Source: a virus
Length of the DNA stretch: 20,464 nt
Reading direction: 5' to 3' (one strand)
IMG/VR virus record: IMGVR_UViG_3300037140_000055
Coordinates: 1-20,464 of that record
Shown: one piece after another, positions 1 through 17,581 of the stretch
Position numbering within the stretch: position 1 is the first letter of the stretch
How the letters are laid out: each line of letters starts with the position of its first letter
Position numbers and translations under genes: made by a program
The notes under the pieces: model-generated
What the model saw: the letters and a program-made list of their open reading frames with translations, nothing else
What the model was told of the DNA's origin: nothing
The model's database searches: none

Positions 1-174
1 TCGCCTCCGATTGATTGGGGGTATCTAAAGACCATGTTTCCGTCGTCTGTTCGCGCCGAAAGGTAGAACGGCGATGAATAAGGTCCATTTCGGTGGATCG
101 CGCAGAGTGCTCTGCGTCCTGTAGAGGGAGAGCCGGGTTCGTGTCGTCCATTGGGCGTCAACCGGATAAGCACG
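1..174. mobile_element. MITE copy 1, right-hand part (left end outside window)
   Basis: Bases 1-174 are identical to 2356-2529, the right-hand 174 bases of the complete 242-bp element at 2288-2529. Identity stops exactly after base 174, the same boundary as the right end of the complete copy. It ends in the right terminal inverted repeat (149-174). Inside it is a small hairpin, CGCAGAG-TG-CTCTGCG at 101-116. No coding frame is convincing. If the boundary is right, the target duplication of this copy should be GGTTATAA (175-182), repeated upstream of the window. Confidence 0.8.
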
Positions 175-1180: not shown

Positions 1181-1189
1181 GAGATGGTC

Positions 1190-1444
1190 ATGGCAAAAGA
1201 TGCACGCGGACACGGTAGCGAAGGCGGTCGCGGCGGCGTAAGTCGGCCGGTCGGATCAGGTTTGCAATTCGGCGTTGCGTCAAAATTCAAATCAAAGGGC
1301 GGCGCGGGCATGAAGTCGGATCGAGATCACACCTCCGATGCGGCGCGCACCGTTTCCGATCTGCGCTCGCGCATGGCGACCACTGGCGCAGGCCACAAAA
1401 CCGGACTCATGCAGGGTATCAAGAATTTTCTCGGAGGCAGGTGA
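1190..1444 (+). CDS. GHGS-family small protein 1, 84 aa
   Basis: It begins MAKDARGHGSEGGRGG, the N-terminal KDAxGHGS module shared with the proteins at 1444, 1904, 2850, 5261 and 5877 and with the disrupted gene at 2235-2853. The rest is Gly-, Ser- and Lys-rich and polar, ending in a short hydrophobic stretch near GIKNFLGGR. I see no catalytic motif or membrane segment. ATG 1190 is chosen over ATG 1184 because AGGAG (1179-1183) lies six bases ahead of it but touches the earlier ATG. The stop overlaps the next start (TGATG, 1442-1446), so the two genes are translationally coupled. The function is unknown. Confidence 0.75.
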   Translation: MAKDARGHGSEGGRGGVSRPVGSGLQFGVASKFKSKGGAGMKSDRDHTSDAARTVSDLRSRMATTGAGHKTGLMQGIKNFLGGR

Positions 1445-1815
1445 TGGCAAAGGATGCAAAAGGTCACGGTTCGGAAGGTCGCAGTGGCGGTCAAAAGCAA
1501 AGCTGGGATGCGAAGCGCGGAAGCTATGCCAAAGGATTTGCAGGGCCTACGCCGGATGGCGGTCATGGAGTATCTGGTTCACAGATAAAGCAATTCATGG
1601 CTGCTAGGCAAGCCGCAGTTACCGCCCCGGATTTAGGTGCCCCATCTGATCCGGCCGCGCATCAAACTGGCGTAGAAGCCGCGCGCAACACGCCGCGCGA
1701 GTCGCTTCGCGGTAGCATCAACAGCAATCCAATCGATGCCTCGGGTGAAGGCGGCGAAGGCCAGCCTACCGCACGCAATCCGCACGGCATTCATATGGGC
1801 TACACGAAGGCGTGA
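1444..1815 (+). CDS. GHGS-family small protein 2, 123 aa
   Basis: It starts MAKDAKGHGSEGRSGG, nearly the same as the preceding protein, and GGAGG at 1434-1438 supports ATG 1444. Residues around 80 carry the second family module, AAHQTG. The last 22 residues (starting GEGGEGQPTARNPHG) are identical to the end of the protein at 1904-2185, because the DNA at 1746-1840 is duplicated at 2116-2210. Composition is polar and low in aromatics, suggesting a largely disordered protein. A Rho-independent terminator follows at 1823-1852, so 1190-1815 is a two-gene unit. The function is not recognised. Confidence 0.75.
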   Translation: MAKDAKGHGSEGRSGGQKQSWDAKRGSYAKGFAGPTPDGGHGVSGSQIKQFMAARQAAVTAPDLGAPSDPAAHQTGVEAARNTPRESLRGSINSNPIDASGEGGEGQPTARNPHGIHMGYTKA

Positions 1816-1840
1816 TTAGACAAGGCGCGCAAATGCGCCT
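1746..1840 (+). repeat. 95-bp direct repeat, copy A
   Basis: This copy is identical to 2116-2210 (offset 370). It covers the last 23 codons of the gene at 1444, its stop and the hairpin arms of the terminator, ending just before the T tract. Confidence 0.95.
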
Positions 1841-1852
1841 AATCTTTTTTCT
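1823..1852 (+). terminator. Rho-independent terminator
   Basis: The stem AGGCGC (1823-1828) / GCGCCT (1835-1840) has a six-base loop and is followed by AATCTTTTTTCT. It ends the unit of the genes at 1190 and 1444. The duplicated copy at 2193-2210 keeps the stem but has lost the T tract. Confidence 0.8.
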
Positions 1853-1903
1853 AACAACGAAAGCGAAAACACCTCCACAACAAAGCGGCATCGGAGTAAA
1901 GTC

Positions 1904-2185
1904 ATGGCGAAGGACAAAGGCGGACACGGTTCAGAAAGTCGCGGCGGCAGCGCACTCACCGCGTCTGTCTCTCGCGGTACTCCGATTGCAGGTATTCCAG
2001 CGTCCGGTGGCCAGCCGGTCGCATCCAACGAGCACGCGGCGGCAACGCTCGCGAGCGGCCCGAAGTCGGCACCGGTCGCGACGCACGACATGATGGGGCG
2101 CTCTCAGGAGTCGATTGAAGGCGGCGAAGGCCAGCCTACCGCACGCAATCCGCACGGCATTCATATGGGCTACACGAAGGCGTGA
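1904..2185 (+). CDS. GHGS-family small protein 3, 93 aa
   Basis: The modules in order are MAKDKGGHGSESRGG at the N-terminus, then GGQPVASNEHAAATLASGPK followed by SAPVATHDMMGR (about residues 34-66), then the 22-residue tail copied from the protein at 1444. The middle block recurs in the proteins at 4293 and 6655 and in shorter form at 5261 and 5446. GGAG about eight bases upstream supports the start. The hairpin after the stop lacks its T tract, so transcription may run on into the disrupted gene downstream. No enzymatic motif is seen. The gene appears to be a chimera whose 3' end was acquired by the 95-bp duplication. Confidence 0.75.
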   Translation: MAKDKGGHGSESRGGSALTASVSRGTPIAGIPASGGQPVASNEHAAATLASGPKSAPVATHDMMGRSQESIEGGEGQPTARNPHGIHMGYTKA

Positions 2186-2210
2186 TTAGACAAGGCGCGC
2201 AAATGCGCCT
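2116..2210 (+). repeat. 95-bp direct repeat, copy B
   Basis: This is the second copy of 1746-1840. It supplies the C-terminal 23 codons of the gene at 1904 and a hairpin without a T tract. The bases just after it (2211 on) read as the 5'-truncated part of the next gene, so this duplication probably also removed that gene's start. Confidence 0.95.
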
Positions 2211-2234
2211 TCCAGCGTCGAGGCCGTGCGTGAT

Positions 2235-2853
2235 ATGCCGCGCGCCGCGCTAGCTTGGCGGGATCGTCAAAACAGTATCCAACAAAGCATGCTTATCCGG
2301 TTGACGCCCAATGCTTGACAGCCACCTGGAATTTTGCTTTTCTCCGTTCCGACAATCGCCTCCGATTGATTGGGGGTATCTAAAGACCATGTTTCCGTCG
2401 TCTGTTCGCGCCGAAAGGTAGAACGGCGATGAATAAGGTCCATTTCGGTGGATCGCGCAGAGTGCTCTGCGTCCTGTAGAGGGAGAGCCGGGTTCGTGTC
2501 GTCCATTGGGCGTCAACCGGATAAGCACGCAACAAAGGACGCTAGGGAAAGCTGCGTCGTCCCGAGAGGTTCGCAGCAAAGCCGATCTCACTGGACGCGC
2601 GAGCTATTGGGGGCAATTGAAGGACGCAGGCGGTCACGGTAGCGAAGCACACGCGGCGCATCAGGCGGGCACGCTTGACGCGCTTCCTCGGATAATTCGG
2701 AATGCCGACGACGATACCTTGCTTGACATATCCCGCTGGGAGCGGCAAACATTGCAGGGTGCTATGTTAGCGCATGGTAAAACTCAGTGGGACGAGAACC
2801 AGGACAGTGGGAGCCTGGACCCGAACCGCCCAGCAAAGGCAGCGAGCAAATGA
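2235..2853 (+). pseudogene. GHGS-family gene split by the MITE
   Basis: If 2288-2529 and one copy of CAACAAAG are removed, the flanks join in a single open frame. The left side ends RDRQNSIQQ, and the right side continues QRTLGKAASS and on through GQLKDAGGHGSEAHAAHQAG to the stop at 2853. The right part carries both family modules (KDAxGHGS and AHQxG) and the segment LDISRWERQTLQGAMLAHGK. As it stands, the 3' part is open from TTG 2506, inside the MITE. A second in-frame TTG at 2617 would give a KDAGGHGS start like the paralogs, so a 78-115 aa product may still be made. The ATG at 2235 is only the first available start, and the true 5' end may have been lost to the 95-bp duplication. The stop overlaps the next start (ATGA at 2850). 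Confidence 0.7.
2288..2529. mobile_element. Complete MITE, 242 bp, with 26-bp TIRs and 8-bp target duplication
   Basis: The ends are inverted repeats: 2288-2313 matches the reverse complement of 2504-2529 at 25 of 26 positions, with 24 contiguous (core CATTGGGCGTCAACCGGATA at 2504-2523). The element is flanked by the perfect direct repeat CAACAAAG at 2280-2287 and 2530-2537. Its right 174 bases recur exactly at 1-174. No transposase frame fits inside 242 bp, so it must be mobilised in trans by an element with matching ends. Eight-base duplications occur in several IS families (for example ISL3, IS1595, IS256 and IS66), and I cannot assign one from the ends alone. Confidence 0.88.
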
Positions 2854-3323
2854 GCAAAGATGCAAAAGGTCACGGCAGCAACGCACGCGGCGCACATTCT
2901 AGTGGAGTCGATCAGGTCGGCAAGCCTGCGCCCCGGGTCAACGACGCGGCGATGAAAGTCATCAGTAGCACGAAGCCCGGCGAAGGCTTCTCTATCACAC
3001 CGGGCGGCAGTCAACCGACAGACGGTCACATGGTTGCCCTGCCAAGCCGTACACAGGATGTCGATCCCGCTGCGTTATCCGGGCCCGGCGGTCGTGCCAT
3101 CATTGACGCGTTCACCGCGAAGAACGCGGACGTTTTCAGTGGCAACCCGAATATGCATGTCGGTGGCTGGCTCGATCCCGACACGCACAAGCTTTCACTC
3201 GATCCGTCCGAGAATATCAAGGATCGCAAGACAGCGATTGCCTCTGGCATAGCGCGCAATCAAAAAGAGATTTGGGATGTGAAGAATAAGACCGGGATAA
3301 AGACAGGTGGCAGTGGTACATGA
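2850..3323 (+). CDS. GHGS leader fused to a phage GGWxDP-type conserved domain, 157 aa
   Basis: The N-terminus is MSKDAKGHGSNARG. From about residue 45 the protein changes to a compact domain with EGFSITPGGSQPTDGHMVAL, then NADVFSGNPNMHVGGWLDPD, LSLDPSENIKDRKTA and a final NQKEIWDVKN with IKTGG. I recall this pattern (GFS...P.GYMVA, GGW.DP.T, LD.S....DR..A...G..NQ..I.D, TGG) from uncharacterised proteins and C-terminal domains in actinobacterial phages and polymorphic proteins. Its biochemical role is unknown to me. ATG 2850 is chosen because it overlaps the previous stop (ATGA) and aligns with the paralogous starts. An in-frame upstream start at 2787 is less likely. Confidence 0.7.
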   Translation: MSKDAKGHGSNARGAHSSGVDQVGKPAPRVNDAAMKVISSTKPGEGFSITPGGSQPTDGHMVALPSRTQDVDPAALSGPGGRAIIDAFTAKNADVFSGNPNMHVGGWLDPDTHKLSLDPSENIKDRKTAIASGIARNQKEIWDVKNKTGIKTGGSGT

Positions 3324-3468
3324 CGCGGACTGCCGGCTGCATTTCACGGACGCGCCCCAACGGTTAAACATGAAGCGGCGCATCACGACGGAAAGAAACT
3401 AAAACAACTCAGCGCGTAACCTGTCTTGGAAAACGCCGGTTGAAAATGAACAAGATAAGGCGCAGCAT

Positions 3469-3643
3469 GGTACATACCGACGCGGAATACGAAAAGCAGG
3501 AGCGGATCATCCGTTGTCAAAATTGACCGAAGTCCAGCGACGGCAGATTAGAACGGCTACCGGGATTACAGCGCGAGATAGCAGCGGAATTCGGGATCAC
3601 TCAGCCACTTGTTTCGATGATAAAGGCAGGGCTATACACATGA
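3469..3643 (+). pseudogene. Frameshifted small helix-turn-helix protein
   Basis: Three frames together read as one protein. ATG 3469 gives MVHTDAEYEKQERIIRCQ, which stops. The next frame gives KLTEVQRRQIRTATG. The third gives REIAAEFGITQPLVSMIKAG then LYT and a stop at 3641-3643. That last part is a typical helix-turn-helix of the 'IAxEFGVSxxxVSxIKxG' kind found in small DNA-binding phage proteins, but its frame has no start codon. One extra A in the AAAA at 3522-3525 region and one fewer G in the GGG near 3560 would join all three. The stop overlaps ATG 3640 (ATGA), as expected for an intact upstream neighbour. It is either a sequencing indel artefact or a decayed regulator gene. Confidence 0.6.
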
Positions 3644-3981
3644 AGAAAGAATTGAAGCCGGGCGAAGTCGGCGAACACCATATCCCGATCTACGACCACA
3701 AAGGCCACATGCGGGGCAGAGTCGGGCCGCGCGCTTCAAGCGTGACGGTCGCTCGCTTCATTGGCCTGCACGGCGCGAAGCTCGGGACCAAAGACGGCCG
3801 CACCGCATGGATCGGTCCGAAGCCGCCACCGCCGAAATTGCCGACTGCCGTCGCCGTCGCCGAGCAACAGGCTAAGGCGAAACCGCAGAATAACACGCTC
3901 GAAATCTCGCTCAAGGCCGATAAGGGCAGCGTGACAAAGACGCCGAGTGCGCCAAAGACGAGCGCCCGGCCGAAGAGGTAG
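3640..3981 (+). CDS. Hypothetical protein with basic Pro-rich tail, 113 aa
   Basis: The first 65 residues look folded: MKKELKPGEVGEHHIPIYDH, then GHMRGRVGPRASSVTVARFI and GLHGAKLGTKDGRTAWIGPK. From about residue 66 there is a Pro/Ala/Lys-rich disordered tail ending KTSARPKR. An in-frame TTG at 3514 would extend it to 155 aa. That extension belongs to the frameshifted helix-turn-helix gene, and ATG 3640 overlaps that gene's stop, so I take 3640. I do not recognise the fold. Overall charge is basic, which would suit nucleic-acid or head contact, but nothing proves it. usg follows seven bases later. Confidence 0.65.
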   Translation: MKKELKPGEVGEHHIPIYDHKGHMRGRVGPRASSVTVARFIGLHGAKLGTKDGRTAWIGPKPPPPKLPTAVAVAEQQAKAKPQNNTLEISLKADKGSVTKTPSAPKTSARPKR

Positions 3982-3987
3982 AGGCTA

Positions 3988-4233
3988 ATGAAGGATGGCT
4001 ACGGACTGACTACGGCCAGCATTCTCTATCGTCGGCCTGACCATCTTTGGTTGCTTCAAAGCTATATCTGGCAAGAGTATGATTTCTGTCCAGTGTTTCC
4101 TCAGTTACACAAGTTCCTGGATTTTTGGTTGGCCAAGCTCGACGGTCCATTACACTCGGTCACGGTCGCGCATGAGCGCTTGATAAAACCTACCGAAATC
4201 CGCGCCATAAGTAGCGAGTTTCGGCTTCACTAA
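3988..4233 (+). CDS. usg: Usg-like family protein, 81 aa
   Basis: It is full length for the family. GYGLTTASILYRRPDHLWLL, QSYIWQEYDFCPVFPQL, HKFLDFWLAKLDGPLHSVTV, AHERLIKPTEIRA and a terminal FRLH match, nearly word for word, what I remember of the Usg family (Pfam Usg-like). In alphaproteobacteria these are small cytosolic proteins of undefined function, historically linked by name only to a phosphoribosylanthranilate isomerase subunit. No catalytic residues are established. A ribosome binding site (AGAGG) precedes ATG 3988. It ends two bases before a promoter-like motif. Presence among phage genes suggests a captured host gene and points to an alphaproteobacterial host. Confidence 0.9.
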   Translation: MKDGYGLTTASILYRRPDHLWLLQSYIWQEYDFCPVFPQLHKFLDFWLAKLDGPLHSVTVAHERLIKPTEIRAISSEFRLH

Positions 4234-4234
4234 C

Positions 4235-4269
4235 ACCGGGTTGCTTTCATAATGCAATCGATGTTATCA
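4235..4269 (+). promoter_or_regulatory. Promoter-like motif ACCGGGTTGC-N19-TTATCA
   Basis: ACCGGG (4235-4240) runs straight into TTGCTT (4241-4246), then 17 bases, then TTATCA(T) at 4264-4270. A start near 4276 gives a short leader with GGGAGAG ahead of ATG 4293. It begins right behind the usg stop. Confidence 0.6.
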
Positions 4270-4292
4270 TGTAAAAATCCTGGGAGAGTGCT

Positions 4293-4481
4293 ATGATCAA
4301 AGACAAATTCGATTGCGATTGCTCGGGCGGCCAGCCGGTCGAGAACGATCAGCATGCGGCGACCGTGCTCGCGCAGGGCGGCCCGAAATCAAAGCGCGTC
4401 CCGGTCAAGTGGGGCATGAAGGATCAAGATAGCGGGGCCGAAGGGCTCGCGCGCAAAGGCGGTTCCGACCCCTACGCGTAA
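4293..4481 (+). CDS. Small modular-family protein, 62 aa
   Basis: It starts MIKDKFDCDCSGG, with a Cys-x-Cys where the paralogs have GHGS. It then carries the shared block GGQPVENDQHAATVLAQGGP followed by KSKRVPVKWGMKDQ (about residues 12-46), closest to the middle of the protein at 1904. The WGMKDQ ending recurs in variant form in the neighbours at 4563 (TMKDQ, WGMK) and 6218 (YGLKDE). GGGAGAG at 4282-4288 supports the start. It is probably a single-gene unit, with promoter-like motifs on both sides (4235-4269 and 4493-4527). The function is unknown. Confidence 0.7.
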   Translation: MIKDKFDCDCSGGQPVENDQHAATVLAQGGPKSKRVPVKWGMKDQDSGAEGLARKGGSDPYA

Positions 4482-4492
4482 GCTCGAAATTT

Positions 4493-4527
4493 ACCGGGTT
4501 GCTTTGGTTAACGGACGCGGCTAAGGT
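4493..4527 (+). promoter_or_regulatory. Promoter-like motif ACCGGGTTGC-N19-TAAGGT
   Basis: ACCGGGTTGC (4493-4502) has TTGCTT at 4499-4504, a 17-base spacer and TAAGGT at 4522-4527. The bases ahead of it (AAATTT) also match those ahead of the copy at 824. A start near 4534 would fall inside the left arm of the hairpin at 4529-4554. Confidence 0.55.
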
Positions 4528-4528
4528 G

Positions 4529-4554
4529 CCTCCGAAGAATTTCATTCTCGGAGG
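4529..4554 (+). promoter_or_regulatory. Strong hairpin over the ribosome binding site of the gene at 4563
   Basis: CCTCCGA (4529-4535) pairs with TCGGAGG (4548-4554) and GAAT (4537-4540) with ATTC (4544-4547). This gives eleven pairs with one bulged A and a three-base loop. The right arm is the Shine-Dalgarno GGAGG, eight bases before ATG 4563. Read-through transcripts would have it buried. Transcripts starting inside the left arm would not. Confidence 0.65.
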
Positions 4555-4562
4555 ATATTCCC

Positions 4563-4997
4563 ATGGCAGTCAAGGGCAGTGGATTAGGCGCGGGTCCTGA
4601 TGGATCGCGGGTTGATCAAACGAAGTTCGACGCCCGGAGCGGCGCTGCCAAGCGCACGCAAACCAAATTTCCGATCAAGGATACCATGAAGGATCAGACC
4701 AGCCTTTCGTATGCTGGTCCAGCCAATCCTGGTACGGGTCCCGATGCCGATCCGGCCGACGTTATGTCGCCGGAGCCGAAGGGTAAGACTTTGCATCGTC
4801 AGTCGCAAATTCTCTTCAATCGTTGGGGTATGAAGGGTGCTGCGCCCGACATGACCGACTCAGCCAAGACAGGCAAGACGCTCGACGCCAATATCGGTGG
4901 CAAGGTCCTGGGCGAAGCGATCCTTTCAGGTTCGAGCAATCTCCCCGCGAAGGGAACTGCACTTACCGATAGCGGCAAAGCGCCGTCCCGGAGCTAA
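4563..4997 (+). CDS. Hypothetical modular-family protein, 144 aa
   Basis: This is a polar, Gly/Pro/Asp-rich protein with two similar internal segments, KFPIKDTMKDQTSLSYAGP (about 37-55) and ILFNRWGMKGAAPDMTDSAK (about 82-102). Both resemble the VKWGMKDQ end of the protein at 4293. No membrane segment, signal or catalytic motif is visible, and much of it is likely disordered. GGAGG at 4550-4554 gives a firm start but is sequestered in a hairpin. The next gene starts seven bases after the stop, so 4563 to about 6643 is likely one unit. I do not know the function. Confidence 0.7.
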   Translation: MAVKGSGLGAGPDGSRVDQTKFDARSGAAKRTQTKFPIKDTMKDQTSLSYAGPANPGTGPDADPADVMSPEPKGKTLHRQSQILFNRWGMKGAAPDMTDSAKTGKTLDANIGGKVLGEAILSGSSNLPAKGTALTDSGKAPSRS

Positions 4998-5003
4998 CGT
5001 GCT

Positions 5004-5261
5004 ATGCGCGCCTTCCATGGTGCGCGTGAAAATACGCTCGGTGCGGAGACTAATCTCGCGCCGGGCTTCAATCTTGTCTCACCGAAAGTCGCTGCGGCTA
5101 CAATGCACAACGATCTTGCGGATGACGTGAAACAAATTGCCGACGGAACGAAGAACGTTCCTATTCATCCGGCGCAAGTCGCTACCGAAGGATCAGATAA
5201 ACAGGGATACGGCGGCGACGCTGCGCAACACGATCCGACGGGGATTGGACGAGGCATGTGA
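5004..5261 (+). CDS. Hypothetical protein, 85 aa
   Basis: The first half reads like a folded segment (LGAETNLAPGFNLVSPKVAA then ATMHNDLADDVKQIADG). The second half is Gly/Asp-rich and includes NVPIHPAQVATEGSDKQGY. The VPxHP string recurs in the protein at 6218 (DVPVHPGLAPG). The start is ATG 5004 with a weak GGAG ten bases upstream. The stop overlaps the next start (TGATG, 5259-5263), arguing for coupled translation. No family is recognised. Confidence 0.65.
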   Translation: MRAFHGARENTLGAETNLAPGFNLVSPKVAAATMHNDLADDVKQIADGTKNVPIHPAQVATEGSDKQGYGGDAAQHDPTGIGRGM

Positions 5262-5446
5262 TGAAAGACGCAAGAGGGCACGGCAGCAACGGCAACGGTG
5301 GTGGAATTGCGCATCAAACCGGCGTCTACCAAATTGATTCGATGCTGACGCCGCTCGGTAATCGCACGCTGCAACATCCACGCGACAATGTTCAAAAAGG
5401 TGGGAACGCAGCCGGGCAATACTTGGCGCAAGGCGGAGATGATTGA
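5261..5446 (+). CDS. GHGS-family small protein 5, 61 aa
   Basis: It starts MKDARGHGSNGNGGG and is followed directly by the second family module GIAHQTGVYQIDSMLTPLG. It ends with a shortened form of the third block, NAAGQYLAQGG. The three modules are thus present in minimal form within 61 residues, which makes it a useful reference for defining the family. GAGG at 5251-5254 supports ATG 5261, while an in-frame GTG at 5258 is less likely. The stop overlaps the next start (TGATG at 5444). The function is unknown. Confidence 0.7.
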   Translation: MKDARGHGSNGNGGGIAHQTGVYQIDSMLTPLGNRTLQHPRDNVQKGGNAAGQYLAQGGDD

Positions 5447-5625
5447 TGGCCAACGTGGCAAGTGGCTCGACGACGGTCGCGGACGTGATCGTTCCGAAGG
5501 GAAATTTCGGACCATACCCCTCCAAGCGCCGAAAGCGGCGCGGGGGCTATGGCCAACAGATCACTGATGAAAGTGCTGCACTTACATTGGGGCAGGGGCA
5601 TCCGAAAAGTAGGGCATCAAAATGA
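5446..5625 (+). CDS. Small modular-family protein, 59 aa
   Basis: The N-terminus is MANVASGSTTVADVIVPKGN, followed by a very basic patch PSKRRKRRGG. The C-terminus, GYGQQITDESAALTLGQGHP then KSRASK, is a variant of the shared HAAxxLAxGxxKS block. ATG 5446 overlaps the preceding stop, and GGAG lies about eight bases upstream. The stop overlaps the next start (ATGA, 5622-5625). No fold is recognised. Confidence 0.65.
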   Translation: MANVASGSTTVADVIVPKGNFGPYPSKRRKRRGGYGQQITDESAALTLGQGHPKSRASK

Positions 5626-5741
5626 CAGCGCGCGCACCCCGTAAAAAAGTGATTAAAGTGAAACCGACGAAACCGACGAAGCCGGTGACGAAGCCGACGA
5701 AGTTGGCGAAGTTTATGAAGTGGTGGCTGACATGGGCTTGA
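5622..5741 (+). CDS. Tiny basic PTKP-repeat protein, 39 aa
   Basis: ATG 5622 overlaps the previous stop (ATGA). The product begins MTARAPRKKVIKVK and continues with four PTK(P) repeats (PTKPTKPVTKPTK) before an amphipathic end, LAKFMKWWLTWA. About a third of its residues are Lys or Arg, and the C-terminal Trp cluster could touch a membrane. Its frame overlaps the next gene by ten bases. Similar tiny Pro/Lys proteins exist in many genomes without a known role, so a repeat-driven chance frame cannot be excluded. Confidence 0.5.
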   Translation: MTARAPRKKVIKVKPTKPTKPVTKPTKLAKFMKWWLTWA

Positions 5742-5875
5742 TCCTTTTGATTATCGTACTTGTTCTGTTGTTCGGCGGCGGTGGATTTTACGCTGGCGGC
5801 GGTCGCGGTCTTGGTGGGGGTCTCGGTCTTATTCTGATCATCCTCTTGATCGTGTTTGTGCTCGGCGGGATTTGA
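5732..5875 (+). CDS. DUF3309-like small membrane protein, 47 aa
   Basis: There are two hydrophobic segments, MGLILLIIVLVLLFG (1-15) and GLILIILLIVFVLGG (about 31-46). Between them lies a Gly-rich loop with a Tyr and an Arg (GGGFYAGGGRGLGGG). The hydrophobic-GGG loop-hydrophobic plan and length fit DUF3309-like proteins, common in Rhizobiales genomes and of unknown function. It acts in the inner membrane. Two short membrane helices also suit a small holin, but no lysis enzyme is visible nearby. The start ATG 5732 has only a weak GGTGG ahead, and coupling to the overlapping gene at 5622 is likely. Confidence 0.65.
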   Translation: MGLILLIIVLVLLFGGGGFYAGGGRGLGGGLGLILIILLIVFVLGGI

Positions 5876-5876
5876 A

Positions 5877-6221
5877 ATGAAAGACGCGCAAGGTCACGGT
5901 AGCAATTCTAAAGGCGGCCAAGCGGCTGTCACATCGTGGCGGGCGGCACATCAAGAAGGAATTCGGCAATCGGTCCCCAGCTTGATTAAAGCGTTCGTGA
6001 AGAACGAAAGCGGCGAAGGCCGCTCTCTCGGGGAGCTTAAGAGCTACGATCCGGAGCCCACATCACGGCTTATCGGTGAAGGCATCGGCGCGGCGGCTTC
6101 GGGCGAACACGCAGGATTAGCAGAAGTCGGAAAAACGCTTATTCATCTGGCGCATTTCCTCGGGGTCTTGGGTGCGCTCGCATTAGTCGATCTGATGGCT
6201 CATTTGGTGGGGATAGCATGA
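5877..6221 (+). CDS. GHGS-family protein with hydrophobic C-terminus, 114 aa
   Basis: It starts MKDAQGHGSNSKGG, followed by the second module in the form WRAAHQEGIRQSVPSLIKAF. The last 35 residues are hydrophobic (LIHLAHFLGVLGALALVDLM), probably one membrane helix or a buried helical hairpin, unlike its paralogs. ATG 5877 lies one base after the previous stop. An upstream in-frame ATG at 5856 would overlap the membrane protein gene and break the family alignment, so I reject it. The stop overlaps the next start (ATGA, 6218). The function is unknown. Confidence 0.7.
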   Translation: MKDAQGHGSNSKGGQAAVTSWRAAHQEGIRQSVPSLIKAFVKNESGEGRSLGELKSYDPEPTSRLIGEGIGAAASGEHAGLAEVGKTLIHLAHFLGVLGALALVDLMAHLVGIA

Positions 6222-7832: not shown

Positions 7833-8597
7833 ATGGCTGCGAATAAACCGAGTTGGCCGAAGTGCGGATGCATCGAGCGATGCGAACGTCTCAAGTGTCA
7901 GATGGCTGGAGGTCGAGACGCCTACAAACGCGCCGCCACGGCAGATAACAATCCGAAGCAAGGTATCGCCACTCGGAAATACTCCCCTCAATACCTCAAA
8001 AGTATCATCGCTGCCGCAGCAGATGTTCCGGCGGAGGCCGTCATCTGTAGGAAAGTGGGCATATCCCGTACCATGCTCCGGTATTGCCTAAAACGCAGCC
8101 AAGAGGGGCGCGCGGGGGATATGTTTGATGTTGAAGTCAAAGATGGCCACGCCGAACGCTTCCACATTCTATATGAGGACGCGATTGACGCGGGCTACGA
8201 CAGGCATCAACAACATGCTAACGATCTCGCTCTTGGCGCGGCACGCGAAGTTCTCGAACATCACGGTCGAGTCGTATATAAATCTGATCCGGTTCTTCTA
8301 TCCTTTGGGCTGAAAGGAGCAGACGCATATCTGTTGGATAAGGATGGAAGCCCTGTTCCTGAAACACGGCCTGTTGGTGGGGCAGTGCAAGCTGAGATGA
8401 CACGCTGGATTTTAACGCATGTTCGTCCGAAGCAGTACGGCACCAAGGTACAGGTCGAGCACGAGCATAAGGGAGGAATTGTTGTCGTCAGCGCGCCACT
8501 GACTCCTGACCAACTCGAAAAAACTTTCGGTGGCGGCCAGAAAATAGTCGATGTGGAGTTTGAAGCGCTGCCGCCACCCCCGGAGAAGAAGTCATGA
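7833..8597 (+). CDS. terS: Terminase small subunit, 254 aa
   Basis: It recognises the phage genome for packaging and hands it to the large subunit. It sits just ahead of terL with an ATGA overlap (8594-8597), the standard arrangement. A helix-turn-helix-like segment lies at about 67-87 (EAVICRKVGISRTMLRYCLK), followed by a helical oligomerisation region. The ending RWILTHVRPKQYGTKVQVEH (191-210) matches the 'RxPxxYGxxVxVEH' motif common near the C-terminus of such small subunits. Odd points are four Cys in the first 22 residues (C11, C13, C17, C22), a possible metal site, and an acidic/Pro-rich tail. An AAAGGAG site supports ATG 7833. Confidence 0.75.
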   Translation: MAANKPSWPKCGCIERCERLKCQMAGGRDAYKRAATADNNPKQGIATRKYSPQYLKSIIAAAADVPAEAVICRKVGISRTMLRYCLKRSQEGRAGDMFDVEVKDGHAERFHILYEDAIDAGYDRHQQHANDLALGAAREVLEHHGRVVYKSDPVLLSFGLKGADAYLLDKDGSPVPETRPVGGAVQAEMTRWILTHVRPKQYGTKVQVEHEHKGGIVVVSAPLTPDQLEKTFGGGQKIVDVEFEALPPPPEKKS

Positions 8598-11011
8598 GTT
8601 TCCCGACAGTCTATCGATGGCGGTTCAATGGCACTGAATACGTTCCAATTATTCTCGACGCATTCGGGAACGAGATGGAGTGTATTTGGGCCCCGCAAGC
8701 CGGGTCGCAAGCTGCGTTTCTATCGGCTACCGAGCTTGAAGTCATATTTGTCGGGACGCGCGGTGGATGCGGCAAGTCGGATGCTTTGCTTTTTTCATAT
8801 TTACAGCATGTCGGTCGCGGATGGGGCGGAGCCTGGAAAGGTATCATTCTGCGGCAGACGCATCCGATGTTGCGGGAATTCATTGACCGGACGAAGCGTT
8901 GGATACCCCGGATTTGGCCCAGCTCCGAATACAACGAAGTAAAATATCGTTGGACGTTTCCTAGCGGGGAGACACTCTATCTATCGCATCTCTCCGAACC
9001 TGTTGATTTCCATGAGTACCAAGGCCAGGAGTTCACATTCATTGGATTTGAAGAACTTGTGACGTGGCCAAATTTGGATTGCTACAAGCTCATGTTCTCT
9101 TGCTTGCGATCTCCGGTCCCTGGTATTCCTTTGATGATACGTTCGACGACCAACCCCTACGGACCCTCTCACAATCTCATCAAGAGCCGGTTCAATTTGC
9201 CAATCCCAAATGCGAAGTCCATGGCAAATCCAGACGGCGCGGTCATGGGGCCGCTCATCCCAGGCGAGGTCGATGAGAACGGTATTCAAGAACCGGATCG
9301 CCGTGTATTCCATGGACACATCCTGGAAAATAAACTCCTACTCAGGAGCAATCCAAGATATGTGGACAATCTGAAAGCCAGCGCCAAGAGCAAAGATTTG
9401 GAGCGGGCGTGGCTCGATGGTGATTGGGACATCACGGCAGGCGGCCTTCTCGATAACGTTTGGGCGAAGGCGAAGAAATTTGCTGTTCTGGAAGGGCTGT
9501 CGCCGCAAACGATCCCAGATGATTGGACAATTTTCAGAGCTTATGATCACGGGTATTCAGCACCGTTCGTTGTCCAGTGGTACGCTTTGAGCAATGGCAA
9601 CGATATTACCTTGGTAAATGGTAAGGTAAGATCGACTCGACGGGGCGATCTTTTTTTGGTCCGGGAATGGTATGGTTCGTCGGGCAAACCAAACGAAGGC
9701 ATGGAAATTCTAGCGCCCGAAATTGCCAAGGGTATTGTCGCACGCGAGATCGAGTGGGGCTGGCAACCCCCCGCCGGGGGTAAAAGCCGTGTCAAATCAG
9801 GACCGGCGGATACCGGAATTTTTGACGATGTGAATGGAGTCCACATCTCGGCGGACTTTGAAAAACCCGTTCACTTGAACAGCCGCAAATATCGAGGGAT
9901 CATATGGGAGCACGCGGATAAAGGAAAAAATTCTCGCGCGCTGGGTTGGGATCAGTTGCGGGAACGTTTGGACGCTACGGTGCCGCTTGAAGGCGTTGGT
10001 CGCGAGCGGCCGGGGCTTTTCGTTTCATCTGAATGCCACGCATGGCTGCGGACAGTCCCGGTCTTGCCGCGCGACGAAGCGCAGGTGGACGACTGTCCAA
10101 AGAATTGTGAGGACCATTGTTTTGTTGCCGGGACTATGGTGGATACAGAAGAGGGCTCTATTGCAATCGAGAAGTTACCTGTATCGGGGCGGCTACATTC
10201 ATTAGACCGTATTGAGCCATACTGTAACCCCCGACTAATTCAGCGAGAAGCACACGTTGTGCGATTGACGTTTAATGATGGACGGACTGTGGAATGCACA
10301 CCGGATCATAAATTCCTTGTAGATTTAGATGAATGGTGGTACGCAAAAGACTTACTCGGAAAGGAAGTCCTGTGCAGCCGATCATTATCAGCCAAACGAT
10401 CCAGGAATTTGAAGGAGTCCGCTACTACCTCTGCGGCAAATACTTTCAGCACAAAGGCAGTCGCCTCCATATTCGCGTGTGGGAGTATCACAAGGGACCT
10501 ATACCAGCGGGCCACCACATTCACCACAAACATACTCGCGCCCAAAATGGACCAAATGATCTGGAATGCCTCACCGCTGTTGAGCATGGCAGGGATCGGC
10601 ATGGGGCGGAGTCTGGAGAAAGAGGGCGGCAATATCTCCCACTTGCTCAGGCCGCTGCCGCAGCTTGGCACAGAACCGACGAGGGCCGTCAATGGCACTC
10701 GGAGCATTCTAAAAAGTTCATGCGGGAGCGTGTTGCAGATTGCGTATCGCTTAATTGCCAGCATTGCGGAGCGACCTTTTCCACGCCTCGATACGCCAGT
10801 GGTTTTGCAAAATTTTGCCACCCGAATTGTAAAGCGCGTGCGTTGCGTCGGCGTCGAAAACTTGCAAGAGCGACGTGACGTATATTGCTTGACTGTTCCG
10901 ACCAATCACACATTTTCGATTGAGGGCGGCATCCTCGTCGCGAATTGTGGGGATTGTTGCAGATATGCCTTGCGGTTCGAATATCAGCCAATGGTCAGCC
11001 GTCGAATTTGA
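8594..11011 (+). CDS. terL: Terminase large subunit precursor containing an intein, 805 aa (529 after splicing)
   Basis: This is the packaging motor ATPase and nuclease. The ATPase domain has Walker A GTRGGCGKS (54-62), Walker B FTFIGFEEL (about 147-155) and a coupling motif RSTTNPYG (183-190). The RNase-H-like nuclease has acidic residues at D318 (FRAYDHG) and D406 (ADTGIFDD). The third, D787, lies in CEDH|CGDCCRY, which is interrupted by the intein (residues 509-784). Mature exteins of 508 and 21 residues sum to 529, normal for this family. The portal follows at 11530. Splicing must occur for the nuclease to form, so packaging depends on it. Confidence 0.92.
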   Translation: MSFPTVYRWRFNGTEYVPIILDAFGNEMECIWAPQAGSQAAFLSATELEVIFVGTRGGCGKSDALLFSYLQHVGRGWGGAWKGIILRQTHPMLREFIDRTKRWIPRIWPSSEYNEVKYRWTFPSGETLYLSHLSEPVDFHEYQGQEFTFIGFEELVTWPNLDCYKLMFSCLRSPVPGIPLMIRSTTNPYGPSHNLIKSRFNLPIPNAKSMANPDGAVMGPLIPGEVDENGIQEPDRRVFHGHILENKLLLRSNPRYVDNLKASAKSKDLERAWLDGDWDITAGGLLDNVWAKAKKFAVLEGLSPQTIPDDWTIFRAYDHGYSAPFVVQWYALSNGNDITLVNGKVRSTRRGDLFLVREWYGSSGKPNEGMEILAPEIAKGIVAREIEWGWQPPAGGKSRVKSGPADTGIFDDVNGVHISADFEKPVHLNSRKYRGIIWEHADKGKNSRALGWDQLRERLDATVPLEGVGRERPGLFVSSECHAWLRTVPVLPRDEAQVDDCPKNCEDHCFVAGTMVDTEEGSIAIEKLPVSGRLHSLDRIEPYCNPRLIQREAHVVRLTFNDGRTVECTPDHKFLVDLDEWWYAKDLLGKEVLCSRSLSAKRSRNLKESATTSAANTFSTKAVASIFACGSITRDLYQRATTFTTNILAPKMDQMIWNASPLLSMAGIGMGRSLEKEGGNISHLLRPLPQLGTEPTRAVNGTRSILKSSCGSVLQIAYRLIASIAERPFPRLDTPVVLQNFATRIVKRVRCVGVENLQERRDVYCLTVPTNHTFSIEGGILVANCGDCCRYALRFEYQPMVSRRI
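10118..10945 (+). other. Intein in TerL, 276 residues
   Basis: The N-terminal block is CFVAGTMVDTEEGSIAIEKL beginning with the nucleophile C509 of the precursor. Block B has T61 and H64 (intein numbering) in GRTVECTPDHKFLV. The C-terminal block F/G reads DVYCLTVPTNHTF and GGILVAN before +1 Cys (C785). The penultimate residue is Ala rather than the usual His, as seen in some active inteins. Roughly intein residues 86-237 (10376-10828) have no Hint-fold features: this stretch is the shadow of an HNH endonuclease read in the -1 frame. The splicing part is thus about 125 residues, the size of a mini-intein. Confidence 0.9.
10372..10878 (+). CDS. HNH homing endonuclease nested out of frame in the intein, 168 aa
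   Basis: In the -1 frame relative to terL, the HNH module YYLCGKYFQHKGSRLHIRVW is followed by GPIPAGHHIHHKHTRAQNGP and NDLECLTAVEHGRDRH. This is the usual 'HHI...N....LE.LT..EH' core of homing nucleases. A Cys4-type zinc finger follows (CQHCGATF, then FCHPNC) with a basic tail RALRRRRKLARAT. The start is most likely GTG 10372, with AAGGAAG at 10361-10367. ATG 10333 in the same frame gives 181 aa but no ribosome site. The last 50 bases overlap the C-terminal splicing block. It would cut intein-less terL alleles and so spread the intein. Confidence 0.85.
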   Translation: MQPIIISQTIQEFEGVRYYLCGKYFQHKGSRLHIRVWEYHKGPIPAGHHIHHKHTRAQNGPNDLECLTAVEHGRDRHGAESGERGRQYLPLAQAAAAAWHRTDEGRQWHSEHSKKFMRERVADCVSLNCQHCGATFSTPRYASGFAKFCHPNCKARALRRRRKLARAT

Positions 11012-13206: not shown

Positions 13207-15972
13207 ATGCCCTTTGACGAAAGCCAGCATCCGCGTGGTGAGCACGGCCGGTGGGCAGTCAGCGCGGGCGGCACTGTCGAGCCGCTCGTCGATCCGCGCG
13301 TGCTCGATGTCGGCGGCGATCAATGGAACAAGGATACTGCGGCCCGACTCGAAAACGAGTATGAGGCAGCGCGTCCGGCACTGAACGCTCTTGTCGAGAC
13401 GGCGGCCAAAGCACCGTCGCCTTCGGATGATGCCGAAGTAAGCGCCGCAGTAAAAGCAAACACTACAGCTAATTTTCACGACTTAGAAAATAGCTTGTCC
13501 GATACTGAGTCGGCTGCGCTTATCAGCAAGTATGGCTCAATTCAAGCGGCATCCACAGCATTGTACGGTAAAGATGCGCCTGGTTTCAAAGGTACGGACG
13601 AACCCGAGGACGAGGAGAGTCCGGAGTCCTGGGATGAGATGAATAACGATCTACAAGAACAGGCAGGGGATAAATACAAAGAGTCAAACTATGAACAAGC
13701 CCTAGAAAGCGAGCAAAATAACTGGTCAGAAAATGGCGCGCCTGCGGAGGCAGCAGCCAAGGTCGCAGAAGATGACGACTGGAAAGCGGAATTCTTGACA
13801 GATTATCTCGCGCAGCGGATCGAGGACGGCGAGCCCGCCATCCCTTACACCGCACAAGAATTGCTCGACTCAATCACATTGAATTTCGATCATGACTCAG
13901 CCTCTGGCTCGGGCTATGGTTCAAAAAGTCTAGCCGAAAAATATCTGGAAGTCGGATTTGACGACAGTCAATTGCAGCACCCTCACAACAATTTCAATCC
14001 CGATCAAATGACGCTTCCTGGTATTGAAGAGGTGAAACCAGAAAGCTCGCTCACTGAGGATATGCGCAAAGACATCACCGAAGCCATCACTGACGCATTC
14101 ATAGAAAAAACAGATAAAGAGACAAGCAATATGGAGGCTCCCGATTATCTTTCGGAAAGCGCTAATGACCTGGTAGCTGAAGATTGGGACCAAATGGGCG
14201 ACAAGGATAAGTTTCAATGGGTCAAAAATAATACTGATCTCGTGGATGATGAGAAGCCGGGGAAGCCTGAACCGAAGGACGAGGGGCCACTTTTAATACC
14301 CACGACCTGGAACCCGATGCAAGACAACGATAAGGGCGCAGGAAATTACACTCGCACGCAACGAATGGCGAAATATCTCGCCAATAACCGCGCCGTTCAA
14401 GTCATGGCGCAGCGTGGCGTACAGACTCTAAATCAAAGGGGCGATCCGGTTCTCACACATGCGGCGGTGCCGGGGACTGATACCAAGTATAGTGAGGAAG
14501 CACATCCTCTTACCCCGACGCTTGAGGCTATTGAGCAATCAGATGAACGATTATGGTCCGGCTGGAAGGGAAGCTCTACCGGAGCGGAGGGGCGGCTCCT
14601 ACAGGTTGCATCGGCTGACGAGCTTGGCGGCCGACTCAGGGAAGCGATAAAAAATCCTGATATGGCGGTGGAGTATAGCGCATTTGCGAAAAGCGATATC
14701 GCAAAAACAGGTACCTTAGAGGAATTTTCAGCGGGACTAAAGGCAAGCAGCAATCCAGTCGAGATGGCAAAGGCGGCAAAATCTGATCCTGATACATCAT
14801 TCGAACAAAAACAAAAAGCTCAGGAAATTATAGAGAACCCCCCTACTTGGAAGCAGCCGCCGCTCGGCGAAAAGGTTACGTTATTCAGTGGGACTGAAAT
14901 ATCGCTGGATAGTAACCCCATGTTGCATGCTTTAGGCAGCAAATTAAAACTTCACGACGGCACGGAAATTCAGAAGCAGCCAGACGGCAAATGGAAAGCA
15001 ACAACAGGTCCACAACCGAGTACGTTGCCGACTCAGGGTAATCCGGCGAAGCTGAAAAGTGAAACCGTATCTCGATACCCCGCAGTAGGCGCGAGTGGTG
15101 CGGGCGCTCCCAGCTATCAGAGACTTCCTGAAATGAACGTCGTGCGTAACGGAGCTACTTCAACTACCACTGATCTAGGTGTCGCAAACGGTTGGGGCGG
15201 TACGGCGAACAATGCATCCAACGGTATCAGCCGGGACGAAGCTATCGAATACGCCAACATGAACTTTGCCAGCATTGGCGGCTACGAGGGTGTCAAAGCA
15301 GCGGTCCGGGCGAAATGGGAAACTACACAATACATGCTCGATAAGGCCGACACACCGATTGTCCAGGTCTATCGCGGCATGAGCTACCCGCACACGCGTT
15401 CAGAAGATGTGATACCTGCCGGAGCCGCAGGTAAAAAATTGGCTGCTGCGGATTTAGAAACTGGGGTTTCTTTTATAAAAGCGCAACCTAAAATGGAAGT
15501 CTCCACGCTTCTGGATAAATCAGGAGAGCCACAACAAAAAGCTCTCATCGCTGAATATGGAAGCCTCTACAACGCAATTGGTGCTATTCATGGTCACGAT
15601 GCCAACGCGATCAAACTACACGACGTGATCCAAAAAGTGCAGGCGGTTCCTACACCTCATGAAGCCGTATCGTATTTGAGTGGGACGGAAATGGAAGCCC
15701 TTACAAAACAGTATGGCTCTTTTGCCAAAGCGTGGGTGGAGATACATCCCGCAGAAGAAACTCCGACTCGCGGGCGCGTTGTGCTACGCGCTGAGGTACC
15801 GCGCACGGCCGTCCTGTCAGTTCCAGCCTACGGCGTAAATGTCCATAGCGAGCACGAAGTTGTTGTCACTGGCACATCCTGGCGTGGCTGGGATGCATGG
15901 TCTGACAAGGCACCGTCGTTTGAGGATGTACCAATGGGTACGAAGACGTCTCCACCAAGGGGCCGCTTATAG
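13207..15972 (+). CDS. Large head-associated protein with C-terminal ADP-ribosyltransferase-like domain, 921 aa
   Basis: The N-terminus MPFDESQHPRGEHGRWAVS is a leader of the 'FDExxHPRGxxGxF' type, shared with the protein at 18023. Residues 40-700 are mostly acidic, helical and low in recognisable motifs. From about 715 the sequence fits an ART fold: VYRGMS with R723, a strand GRVVLRAEVPRTAVLS, then SEHEVVV with an ExE pair at E882/E884. R-S-E type ARTs transfer ADP-ribose from NAD to arginines, and phages fuse such domains to head proteins for injection. Between R723 and ExE lie two copies of a helical repeat (cores YGS at 784 and 836). A third copy is at 109. No Mu F domain is evident. The catalytic call is by pattern only. 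Confidence 0.65.
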   Translation: MPFDESQHPRGEHGRWAVSAGGTVEPLVDPRVLDVGGDQWNKDTAARLENEYEAARPALNALVETAAKAPSPSDDAEVSAAVKANTTANFHDLENSLSDTESAALISKYGSIQAASTALYGKDAPGFKGTDEPEDEESPESWDEMNNDLQEQAGDKYKESNYEQALESEQNNWSENGAPAEAAAKVAEDDDWKAEFLTDYLAQRIEDGEPAIPYTAQELLDSITLNFDHDSASGSGYGSKSLAEKYLEVGFDDSQLQHPHNNFNPDQMTLPGIEEVKPESSLTEDMRKDITEAITDAFIEKTDKETSNMEAPDYLSESANDLVAEDWDQMGDKDKFQWVKNNTDLVDDEKPGKPEPKDEGPLLIPTTWNPMQDNDKGAGNYTRTQRMAKYLANNRAVQVMAQRGVQTLNQRGDPVLTHAAVPGTDTKYSEEAHPLTPTLEAIEQSDERLWSGWKGSSTGAEGRLLQVASADELGGRLREAIKNPDMAVEYSAFAKSDIAKTGTLEEFSAGLKASSNPVEMAKAAKSDPDTSFEQKQKAQEIIENPPTWKQPPLGEKVTLFSGTEISLDSNPMLHALGSKLKLHDGTEIQKQPDGKWKATTGPQPSTLPTQGNPAKLKSETVSRYPAVGASGAGAPSYQRLPEMNVVRNGATSTTTDLGVANGWGGTANNASNGISRDEAIEYANMNFASIGGYEGVKAAVRAKWETTQYMLDKADTPIVQVYRGMSYPHTRSEDVIPAGAAGKKLAAADLETGVSFIKAQPKMEVSTLLDKSGEPQQKALIAEYGSLYNAIGAIHGHDANAIKLHDVIQKVQAVPTPHEAVSYLSGTEMEALTKQYGSFAKAWVEIHPAEETPTRGRVVLRAEVPRTAVLSVPAYGVNVHSEHEVVVTGTSWRGWDAWSDKAPSFEDVPMGTKTSPPRGRL

Positions 15973-16024
15973 GGGAGATTTCTTCTGCGGACTATGTTAA
16001 GCTGCAAAAAGAGGCATACCCGGT

Positions 16025-16462
16025 ATGATCGATGTAGATTTGAATGATCATAGTGGCGGACCGCATTGGCTCACAAAAGCAGGCGGTCATGACCACGCCA
16101 AAAATATCCGCGCCAAGCACCGCGCTGCGTGGGTAGCGAAGCATCCGCGCGTGCCTAATCCCGTGCGCCCGGAGACGATGGCGAAGTTGGAAGCTGTCAG
16201 CGCCTATGCGCAGAAAGTTCACGCTGCCAAAGTCCTGGCTCGAATAACCAAAACCTGGAATACCGCGCTCGCGATCATCGATAAATCAGAGCTTGTATTG
16301 CGCGACGTGATCGAGCGCGGGCTTTTGAATACCGCCGGACTTGATCATCAGCGCTACAATGATGCGATGCGGGTCGCTGACCGACTCATGAAAAAGATCA
16401 CACGCATTCGGACCAAAGCCATCAAAGCTGCCTTCCGCCTTTTGCGGGATCAATCCTATTAA
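16025..16462 (+). CDS. Hypothetical helical protein, 145 aa
   Basis: The start is polar (MIDVDLNDHSGGPHWLTKAG), followed by long basic helices (AKLEAVSAYAQKVHAAKVLA; DRLMKKITRIRTKAIKAAFR). AGAGG (16009-16013) lies eleven bases upstream of the ATG. The stop TAA (16460-16462) falls at the expected right end of the IS200/IS605 element, so the native C-terminus may be longer and cut by the insertion. The function is not recognised. Confidence 0.6.
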   Translation: MIDVDLNDHSGGPHWLTKAGGHDHAKNIRAKHRAAWVAKHPRVPNPVRPETMAKLEAVSAYAQKVHAAKVLARITKTWNTALAIIDKSELVLRDVIERGLLNTAGLDHQRYNDAMRVADRLMKKITRIRTKAIKAAFRLLRDQSY

Positions 16463-16475
16463 CGTCTTCCCCGGT

Positions 16476-17552
16476 CTAAAGGCCAGGGATTTCCACTACC
16501 GGAGGCGGACGTTCCCGCCCGACACGGAGAATGTTTAGCGCTGCGTTCACATCCCGATCGTGAGAAGTGCCGCAGTCTGAACAAACCCAATGTCTTATTT
16601 CAAGCGCGCCCATACCTTTCGGACTGCTGTCGGGAATACACCCGCAGCACGAGCACGTCTGAGAAGTCCATCGCTCGTCGGCTTCTACATACCGAGCCCC
16701 GTGCCTGCTGGCTTTGTAGCGGAGCTGATTGCGGAACGTCGTCCATCCTGCATCGAGTACGGATTTAGCCATCCGCGTCTTTACAAGTTTGGCGGCGCTC
16801 ACATTGCCGACAACGATAAGCCGATTTTGGCGAACTATCGAAGTAGTCGCCTTGTGGTGTTGATCCTTTCGGACGTTCGCAATCTTTGCGTGGATGGCTT
16901 TGACGCGACACTTGTTGCCGGCGCGCTGTTGAACGGCGAGCGCGACCTCGTACTTGCGATAGTGCTGAAGCGCCGGAACAGTGTTGCCATTGCTGCACGT
17001 CGCCAGCGTCCTCAATCCAAGGTCGATCCCTATCTCTCCGTTGCCGGTCGGCAGGTCATCGGTAACCTCACACTGGAAACAGACATACCAGCGCCCGCGA
17101 GCGTCCTGAGTAAAGCAGCCGGCCTTGATGTCGTCGGGAATATCCCGCGATTTCCAGAAGTGGAATTTCCGTTTGAGGTAGACGACATGTGCGCCTTCGA
17201 GACGTACAGCGCGCTTGATAAATGGCAGCCAACCGAGTGCGCGCTTCGACCCACCGCTGGCGCGAAAGCGCGGGGCGTGGCGGGCGGCGTTGCGCGAGAT
17301 TACAAACTGCTTGCAAATCTGACTGACCGTATCGGAGTGCAGCCCAAGTTCCGCAGCACATCCAGTAGTCAGCTTGACAAGATCGAAGTGCGACGGCCAA
17401 CGACGCTTAGGCGCGCCGTCCCTGTAATTGGACATCGCCCTGCGCTGTATCTCGCAACAGTAATTCCACACGAAGTTGCACGCCCGCGAGTGCCGCCCGA
17501 GGTACTTACCGACCATTGCGTCTTTGATGCGGAACTTATATGTAAGGATCAT
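16476..17552 (-). CDS. tnpB: TnpB, RNA-guided endonuclease of the IS element, 358 aa
   Basis: TnpB cuts DNA at the element's donor site using an RNA from the element's right end. The N-terminus MILTYKFRIKDAMVGKYLGR is typical. The RuvC parts are D177 (IGIDLGLRT), the segment IVVGNVSAAKLVKTRMAKSV and D332/D334 in HDRDVNAALNIL. A zinc ribbon has CSCC at 300-303 and CSDC at 324-327. The usual glutamate of the second RuvC motif ('vvENL') is replaced by Gly249. E290 and E293, in VEADERWTSQTC, could substitute, as in TnpB/Fanzor proteins with a rearranged active site. The ATG at 17552 is preferred to a TTG at 17579. Length is normal, with no frameshift. Confidence 0.88.
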   Translation of the reverse strand: MILTYKFRIKDAMVGKYLGRHSRACNFVWNYCCEIQRRAMSNYRDGAPKRRWPSHFDLVKLTTGCAAELGLHSDTVSQICKQFVISRNAARHAPRFRASGGSKRALGWLPFIKRAVRLEGAHVVYLKRKFHFWKSRDIPDDIKAGCFTQDARGRWYVCFQCEVTDDLPTGNGEIGIDLGLRTLATCSNGNTVPALQHYRKYEVALAVQQRAGNKCRVKAIHAKIANVRKDQHHKATTSIVRQNRLIVVGNVSAAKLVKTRMAKSVLDAGWTTFRNQLRYKASRHGARYVEADERWTSQTCSCCGCIPDSSPKGMGALEIRHWVCSDCGTSHDRDVNAALNILRVGRERPPPVVEIPGL

Positions 17553-17581
17553 ACGCAGGAAGTATTGGTCGGTGGTCAAAA

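Follow-up and report, generated by a model that had tools for sequence, protein, structure and literature searches.

A miniature IS1595-type transposon that probably retains a tnpB guide-RNA scaffold has multiplied within a phage genome

The window analysed here, 20,464 nucleotides long, is the whole of the IMG/VR virus record IMGVR_UViG_3300037140_000055 (G000). It contains one complete miniature inverted-repeat transposable element (MITE) and starts inside a second copy of it (Table 1). This MITE is probably a non-autonomous, non-coding IS1595-family derivative of a TnpB-carrying cassette in which the guide-RNA scaffold has been kept. Judged by homology, its right third corresponds to the 3′ end of tnpB genes, that is, to the omega-RNA (guide RNA) scaffold, and because of this the MITE is not anonymous filler.

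The anatomy agrees with the first-pass annotation, which had proposed a recently moved MITE within a phage gene cluster. The 26-base terminal inverted repeats (TIRs) are complementary at 25 of 26 positions, the flanks read as a perfect 8-base duplication (CAACAAAG), and positions 2356-2529 are 100% identical to the partner at the start of the window. Among the window genes are matches to the terminase large subunit, portal and head morphogenesis families, and the proposal is further upheld by a burst of copies in this one phage and by a plausible IS1595-family parent there. No open reading frame (ORF) of at least 60 amino acids lies wholly within the element; ORFs that enter or cross it include two of 79 and 113 amino acids on the minus strand.

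A scan with a window protein led to a longer contig (IMGVR_UViG_3300050119_000104, 117,459 b; hereafter G002), which differs from the window by four mismatches over 20,464 b and is, on that identity, the same uncultured soil phage. It holds 13 related copies, for which the original figure of two within 2.4 kb was too low; the idea of a burst within one phage stands, whereas local hopping is too narrow a description of copies spread across the 117-kb contig. Eight copies have both TIRs intact (13769, 14637, 15472, 26074, 29656, 32011, 95814 and 102018), two have damaged left ends (18449 and 18974), two are fragments (111442 and 115893) and one is diverged (6528). The eight intact copies are 235-256 b long and contain no transposase gene, and the two belonging to the window (29656 and 32011) are identical to each other. 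Five of the eight are flanked by perfect 8-base duplications (CACTGGAG, GAAGGCTT, CAACAAAG, AAGAGACC and TTATGTTT). For the truncated copy 1, the left TIR is present in G002 but the suggested GGTTATAA duplication is not, the flanks there being GATAGGTT and GGTTATAA. The terminus on the scaffold side is CACG in 16 of 17 ends (TACG in the other), and the opposite terminus is CATG in all nine examined. Inversion or recombination between copies was considered as an explanation for the missing duplications and set aside, as the flanks of the three copies concerned, compared by eye, gave no match. Directly left of a MITE nested in the end of a TnpB-bearing element (TnpB2), positions 15445-15468 of G002 (L041) resemble by eye the 5′ half of a tRNA.

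A plausible autonomous parent with matching ends, as the first-pass annotation had anticipated, is located in the same contig. It is a transposon of 2,250 b (8172-10421) with MITE-type ends and a perfect duplication (ATCGGGAT), and its 347-amino-acid ORF encodes an IS1595-family transposase (NF033547, 190.6 bits; PF12762, DDE_Tnp_IS1595, 119.8; PF12760, Zn_ribbon_IS1595, 45.0; all above cut-offs). The 18 outermost bases of the MITE right end equal those of this transposon except for CACG/CATG, and the left ends have their first 15 bases in common. Two phage records were matched by the transposase, both at ~25% identity. The transposon splits a TIGR-Tas endonuclease gene, with model positions 2-152 on one side and 151-214 on the other, and the reading frame continues when the flanks are joined. 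Beside the split gene, the region L041 7386-10988 of G002 holds a 36-base repeat array of ~9 copies, probably a TIGR array.

Like-ended elements proved to be widespread. Stretches with the end motif GYGTCAACCGGATAAGCAYG number 91 in viral_contigs and 25 in genome_contigs, and the exact 24-base TIR occurred 0 times in genome_contigs. Outside G002, 129 ends were found in 110 loci, and pairing them yielded 71 distinct two-ended elements, of which 50 have duplications matching at 8/8 positions and one at 7/8; the count covers each element once and pairs of up to 3.2 kb, and 35 of the 129 hits dropped out as right ends for which no left partner lay closer than 3.5 kb. An IS1595 transposase is present in 16 of the 51 elements so duplicated. 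TIRs and duplication together therefore point with high confidence to the IS1595 mobility system, and the MITE was probably moved in trans by a transposase of this type. It could instead be supposed that it is a non-autonomous IS200/IS605 element moved by TnpA, as the window does encode a TnpA/TnpB pair and the scaffold is of the IS605 type. This is scarcely credible and was rejected on account of the 26-base TIRs and 8-base duplications, neither of which IS200/IS605 elements are known to make, such elements instead having hairpins that TnpA recognises; moreover, the MITE ends equal those of IS1595 transposons.

The link to TnpB rests on genes carried between the same kind of ends. Three loci of G002 hold tnpB within TIRs of the MITE kind (93227-94362, 15708-16846 and 116344 to the contig end), the proteins of the first two scoring 213.6 and 201.6 bits against NF040570. 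A related phage record (G010), collinear with the window region at ~70-80% DNA identity in matching pieces, holds another such tnpB that is 94.7% alike. In a tree of 11 TnpBs, one row of which is only 43% filled, the four TIR-borne proteins and the TnpB of the ordinary-looking IS200/IS605 pair in the window form one group with full support; one single capture of tnpB into IS1595 ends is neither established nor excluded by it. A lone right end of the TnpB type (TACG terminus), with no recognisable left partner or tnpB, lies at L041 19626-19672 of G002.

In six ordinary relatives from plasmids and the Acinetobacter phage HFM1, the tnpB 3′ end consists of a hairpin, a linker, a second hairpin and GTCAAY or a sequence near it, and the MITE right end has the same order, closing with GTCAAC. 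Further upstream, CCGAAAGGTA..GAATAAG looks alike by eye between the MITE and tnpB. With the TIRs trimmed off, four out of four MITE variants match the 3′ end of the TnpB1 gene above all 200 dinucleotide shuffles, and the match sits just inside the TIR, in register and in the same orientation. The first strip of the TnpB locus L164 is also matched by the trimmed MITE, and TnpB2 only by the 6528 and G010 variants. A covariance model built from 11 tnpB ends and no MITE (R1) was scanned over 157,923 b and gave 23 hits: seven on tnpB ends, 15 on MITEs (12 in G002, one in G010, and two that are the window copies a second time) and a last one with E 1.2. Thus every G002 copy that bears the scaffold (12 of 12) was recovered, as was the one in G010 (29.6-44.4 bits); the single G002 copy missed, 111442, lacks the scaffold part. 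A second model of the same type without the last 10 nt, and hence free of the TIR part (R2), gave 22 hits, the same seven tnpB ends and 15 MITEs, the E-values of the MITEs ranging from 6e-6 to 0.009; up to E 5, no further hit in the 157,923 b fell outside tnpB. Some training rows of both models are TIR-borne tnpB, so neither model can be regarded as independent of this subclade. R1 was also applied to 91 further sources, most of which have the same end motif; only those bearing tnpB scored (E ~1e-10), the next four rows lying at E 0.29-0.69; this set omits the G002 pieces, L083, L089 and L116 (these three covered through L163) and 20 of the 25 genome_contigs loci. Such results leave very little room for a plain IS1595 MITE unrelated to TnpB, alike by chance or through the shared TIR only. 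The inner TIR (GTCAAC) does happen to equal the end of tnpB scaffolds and many cassettes with the same TIR lack TnpB, but the TIR-free model still recovers every scaffold-bearing copy, the TnpB-less elements do not score, and the interior match exceeds all shuffles. The Rfam search returned no family at the MITE, and no relatives of it were found in the phage or plasmid collections searched.

The two phages also bear on how the copies spread. Between G010 and G002 the TnpB1 element is 94.7% alike and the MITE up to 90.7%, both above the backbone identity. This is what would be expected if recombination or TnpB-driven repair (homing), more than transposition, had spread the copies, and the lack of duplications at three of the eight intact MITEs and at the TnpB elements with two recognisable ends fits as well. 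Such an account nevertheless seems unlikely, as perfect duplications of unrelated sequences at five of the eight intact copies are the mark of a transposase.

The scaffold shows some signs of constraint. Among tnpB scaffolds, two-sided changes occur, in one sequence or more, at 10 of 13 pairs (36 cells versus 12.0 in shuffled data). In the MITE helices 97.5% of cells are paired, and three pairs (four cells) have changed on both sides in what is a weak sample of nine distinct rows. The scaffold core contains the longest unchanged run, 30 bases, between MITEs that are 71% alike outside the right TIR, and a run of this length was equalled in 21 of 20,000 column shuffles. Near the left end, the box TTGACA-N14-TGC-TTTTCT, perhaps a promoter, is kept in all 12 G002 copies in which the left part survives, or 12 of the 13 G002 places.

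Taken together, these features suggest the following course. An IS1595-type transposase would act on the 26-base inverted ends and duplicate 8 b of target; the tnpB coding sequence would have been lost from the body, and the omega-RNA scaffold, recognised by homology, kept next to the right end. Transcription from the conserved box could yield an RNA of ~170-200 nt in which the scaffold ends at GTCAAC and the 3′ tail consists of 12 constant TIR bases (CGGATAAGCACG) followed by the target duplication, and a TnpB from another phage locus could bind this RNA. As the scaffold end (GTCAAC, 2517) falls by homology 12 b inside the MITE end, the guide would be CGGATAAGCACG, from the outer TIR, plus the duplication, and its first 12 nt would be common to all copies. 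Exact CGGATAAGCA has no other occurrence outside element ends in G002, so no natural target is evident there. A search of the loci examined for targets of the right flanks returned only two 16-base matches with one mismatch each, judged to be chance; the right flank of 15472 matches other TIRs because it adjoins a TIR.

Several observations weigh against a functional, TnpB-derived guide RNA moved by transposition. A scan of 2200-2700 for sigma-70 promoters and terminators found none, and inspection by eye to the left of the five duplications revealed no conserved motif resembling a target-adjacent motif (TAM). Three of the eight intact MITEs in G002 (13769, 26074 and 29656) are without duplication, as are those TnpB-bearing elements in which both ends can be recognised (TnpB1 in G002, TnpB1 in G010, TnpB2 with its damaged left end, and L125). 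The window MITE did not match TnpB2, L164b, AciHFM1 or winTnpB above shuffles, which confines the homology to a subclade, and a model of the upstream segment (R3) reached no MITE at E ≤ 5. In addition, TnpB1 has a glycine aligned where the RuvC-II glutamate would be expected, so that its cleavage activity is only putative; canonical TnpB relatives are likewise without glutamate at this position, and other glutamates may serve in its place.

On the one hand, the scaffold could be a dead relic, the MITE having the same origin by internal deletion of a TnpB cassette, owing its spread to the IS1595 transposase alone and serving no function as RNA; we give this about even chances. Internal deletion is the usual origin of MITEs, the guide would be 12 constant TIR bases with no target evident in G002 outside element ends, and neither promoter nor TAM lends support. 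The 30 unchanged bases between otherwise dissimilar variants, the compensatory changes in the MITE helices (few as they are) and the box present in every variant keeping the left part speak against a dead relic. On the other hand, and more speculatively, the MITEs may be active mobile guide-RNA genes. Each would then supply an omega-RNA with the constant seed CGGATAAGCACG and its own duplication, loaded by a TnpB from elsewhere, so that phages would spread guide RNAs by means of an unrelated DDE transposase; the fixed T-to-C change at the scaffold-side terminus may stop TnpB cutting ordinary IS1595 ends while CACG ends are still attackable. A role of the MITE RNA in recognising IS1595 ends is possible, and a dead relic is as likely.

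Table 1. Coordinates of the MITE copies, their parts and the related IS200/IS605 genes in the window.
Feature	Positions	Strand	Remark
MITE copy 2, complete	2288-2529	+	242 b; orientation puts the omega-RNA-like part at the right end
Left copy of 8-b target duplication	2280-2287		CAACAAAG; read from sequence
Right copy of 8-b target duplication	2530-2537		CAACAAAG; read from sequence
Left TIR	2288-2313	+	Terminus CATG
Right TIR	2504-2529	-	Terminus CACG
Conserved box	2315-2343	+	TTGACA-N14-TGC-TTTTCT; putative promoter
tnpB omega-RNA scaffold homologue	2450-2517	+	Ends in GTCAAC
Would-be guide, if the RNA is used	2518-2537	+	12 b of TIR plus 8-b duplication; putative
MITE copy 1, right 174 b only	1-174	+	Record starts within this copy; whole in G002 (29656-29897)
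Same omega-RNA scaffold in MITE copy 1	95-162	+	
tnpB of ordinary-looking IS200/IS605 pair	16476-17579	-	Closest kin here of the TIR-borne TnpBs
tnpA (Y1/IS200-like transposase)	17582-17992	+	
Omega-RNA scaffold of the window's own tnpB	16458-16537	-	In the training set of the model

The MITE combines features of systems that have been described separately. According to the available text of PMC8101967, members of the IS1595 family usually have 8-base duplications, a zinc finger and a DDE domain; the MITE system resembles IS1595 (ISXO2-like) insertion sequences and their MITEs in its Zn-ribbon and DDE transposase, its 8-base duplication and the TIRs shared between transposon and MITE, and differs from the family in that it multiplies in a phage and carries a tnpB guide-RNA scaffold. 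In IS200/IS605 elements such as ISDra2, as far as the consulted portion of PMC8612924 goes, the TnpB RNA (omega-RNA or reRNA) reaches from the end of tnpB across the element's right end, and flanking DNA supplies its last ~16 nt. The MITE is similar in having a scaffold from the tnpB 3′ end, the right end of the element and the flank directly beyond; unlike these elements, it has no tnpB, has DDE-type TIRs and duplications, and its scaffold ends 12 b inside the element, so that a guide would begin with the TIR. A survey of 5,170 viral genomes describes, in the part available, ten classified MITEs, all in viruses of insects or amoebas (PMC6004678), and the word "phage" occurs 0 times in its text. 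The IS200/IS605_NA elements that this part describes from baculoviruses and ascoviruses are likewise viral MITE-like elements with shared TIRs and longer partners encoding TnpB, but they belong to eukaryotic viruses, have 10-base TIRs, and no TnpA or other transposase is named for them there. Phage-encoded TldR proteins, presented in the available text of PMC13418256 as TnpB-derived RNA-guided repressors, are also TnpB descendants whose guide RNAs are used by phages; they are protein-coding domesticated systems, whereas the MITEs are dispersed non-coding transposons. No report of this combination was found in the searches made of the literature on IS1595, TnpB and phage MITEs.

The elements from which TnpB guide RNAs are known carry tnpB and are mobilised either by TnpA-type enzymes or by serine recombinases. 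In the present case, a transposase system of the DDE type appears to have acquired tnpB along with the guide-RNA region and then to have lost the protein, and what was left multiplied in a phage. This would be a concrete route by which guide RNAs become nuclease-independent and are distributed among genomes; such a step has often been considered in connection with the origin of CRISPR-like systems. Guide-RNA genes may thus be making their way through phage genomes in the form of tiny transposons. Transposon bursts evidently do happen in phage genomes.

The survey further indicates a wider group of IS1595-ended cassettes with single small genes in uncultured phages. Cassettes with such ends and perfect 8-base duplications occur in the viral contigs L053, L058, L064, L066, L098, L104, L113, L128 and others; 22 of the 50 perfectly duplicated elements are 320-1250 b long, mostly with one small ORF each, and DNA methylases account for two of the ten cassette ORFs scanned. 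In appearance these are transposable phage cassettes with a single gene each. A Desulfobacteraceae bin (Eth-SRB2) contains several ~220-base elements with the same ends, most of them with perfect 8-base duplications (L134, L141, L143, L146-L148, L151 and L155), which can be read as a bacterial MITE family of this group.

In the window, copy 2 is inserted ~87 b upstream of a probable TTG-started gene of the GHGS type (2617-2853; start inferred). Empty sites, for which the first-pass annotation had suggested looking, were found by locus and not by junction: the exact empty junction was found 0 times in viral_contigs, but at the corresponding place G010 has the neighbouring genes in order and an ATG-started GHGS-type homologue, with the MITE absent, and so serves as an empty locus by gene order only. 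A run of small proteins starting (M)xKDAxGHGS extends over 1184-6221 and includes a 100-base near-identical duplication (1741-1840 and 2111-2210). The terminase large subunit at 8594-11011 contains an intein (PF14890), and an ORF at 10333-10878, in another frame than the terminase, reads by eye like an HNH nuclease. Elsewhere in G002, a long ATG/CAT trinucleotide run at L041 11346-11470 gives rise to a histidine-rich ORF.
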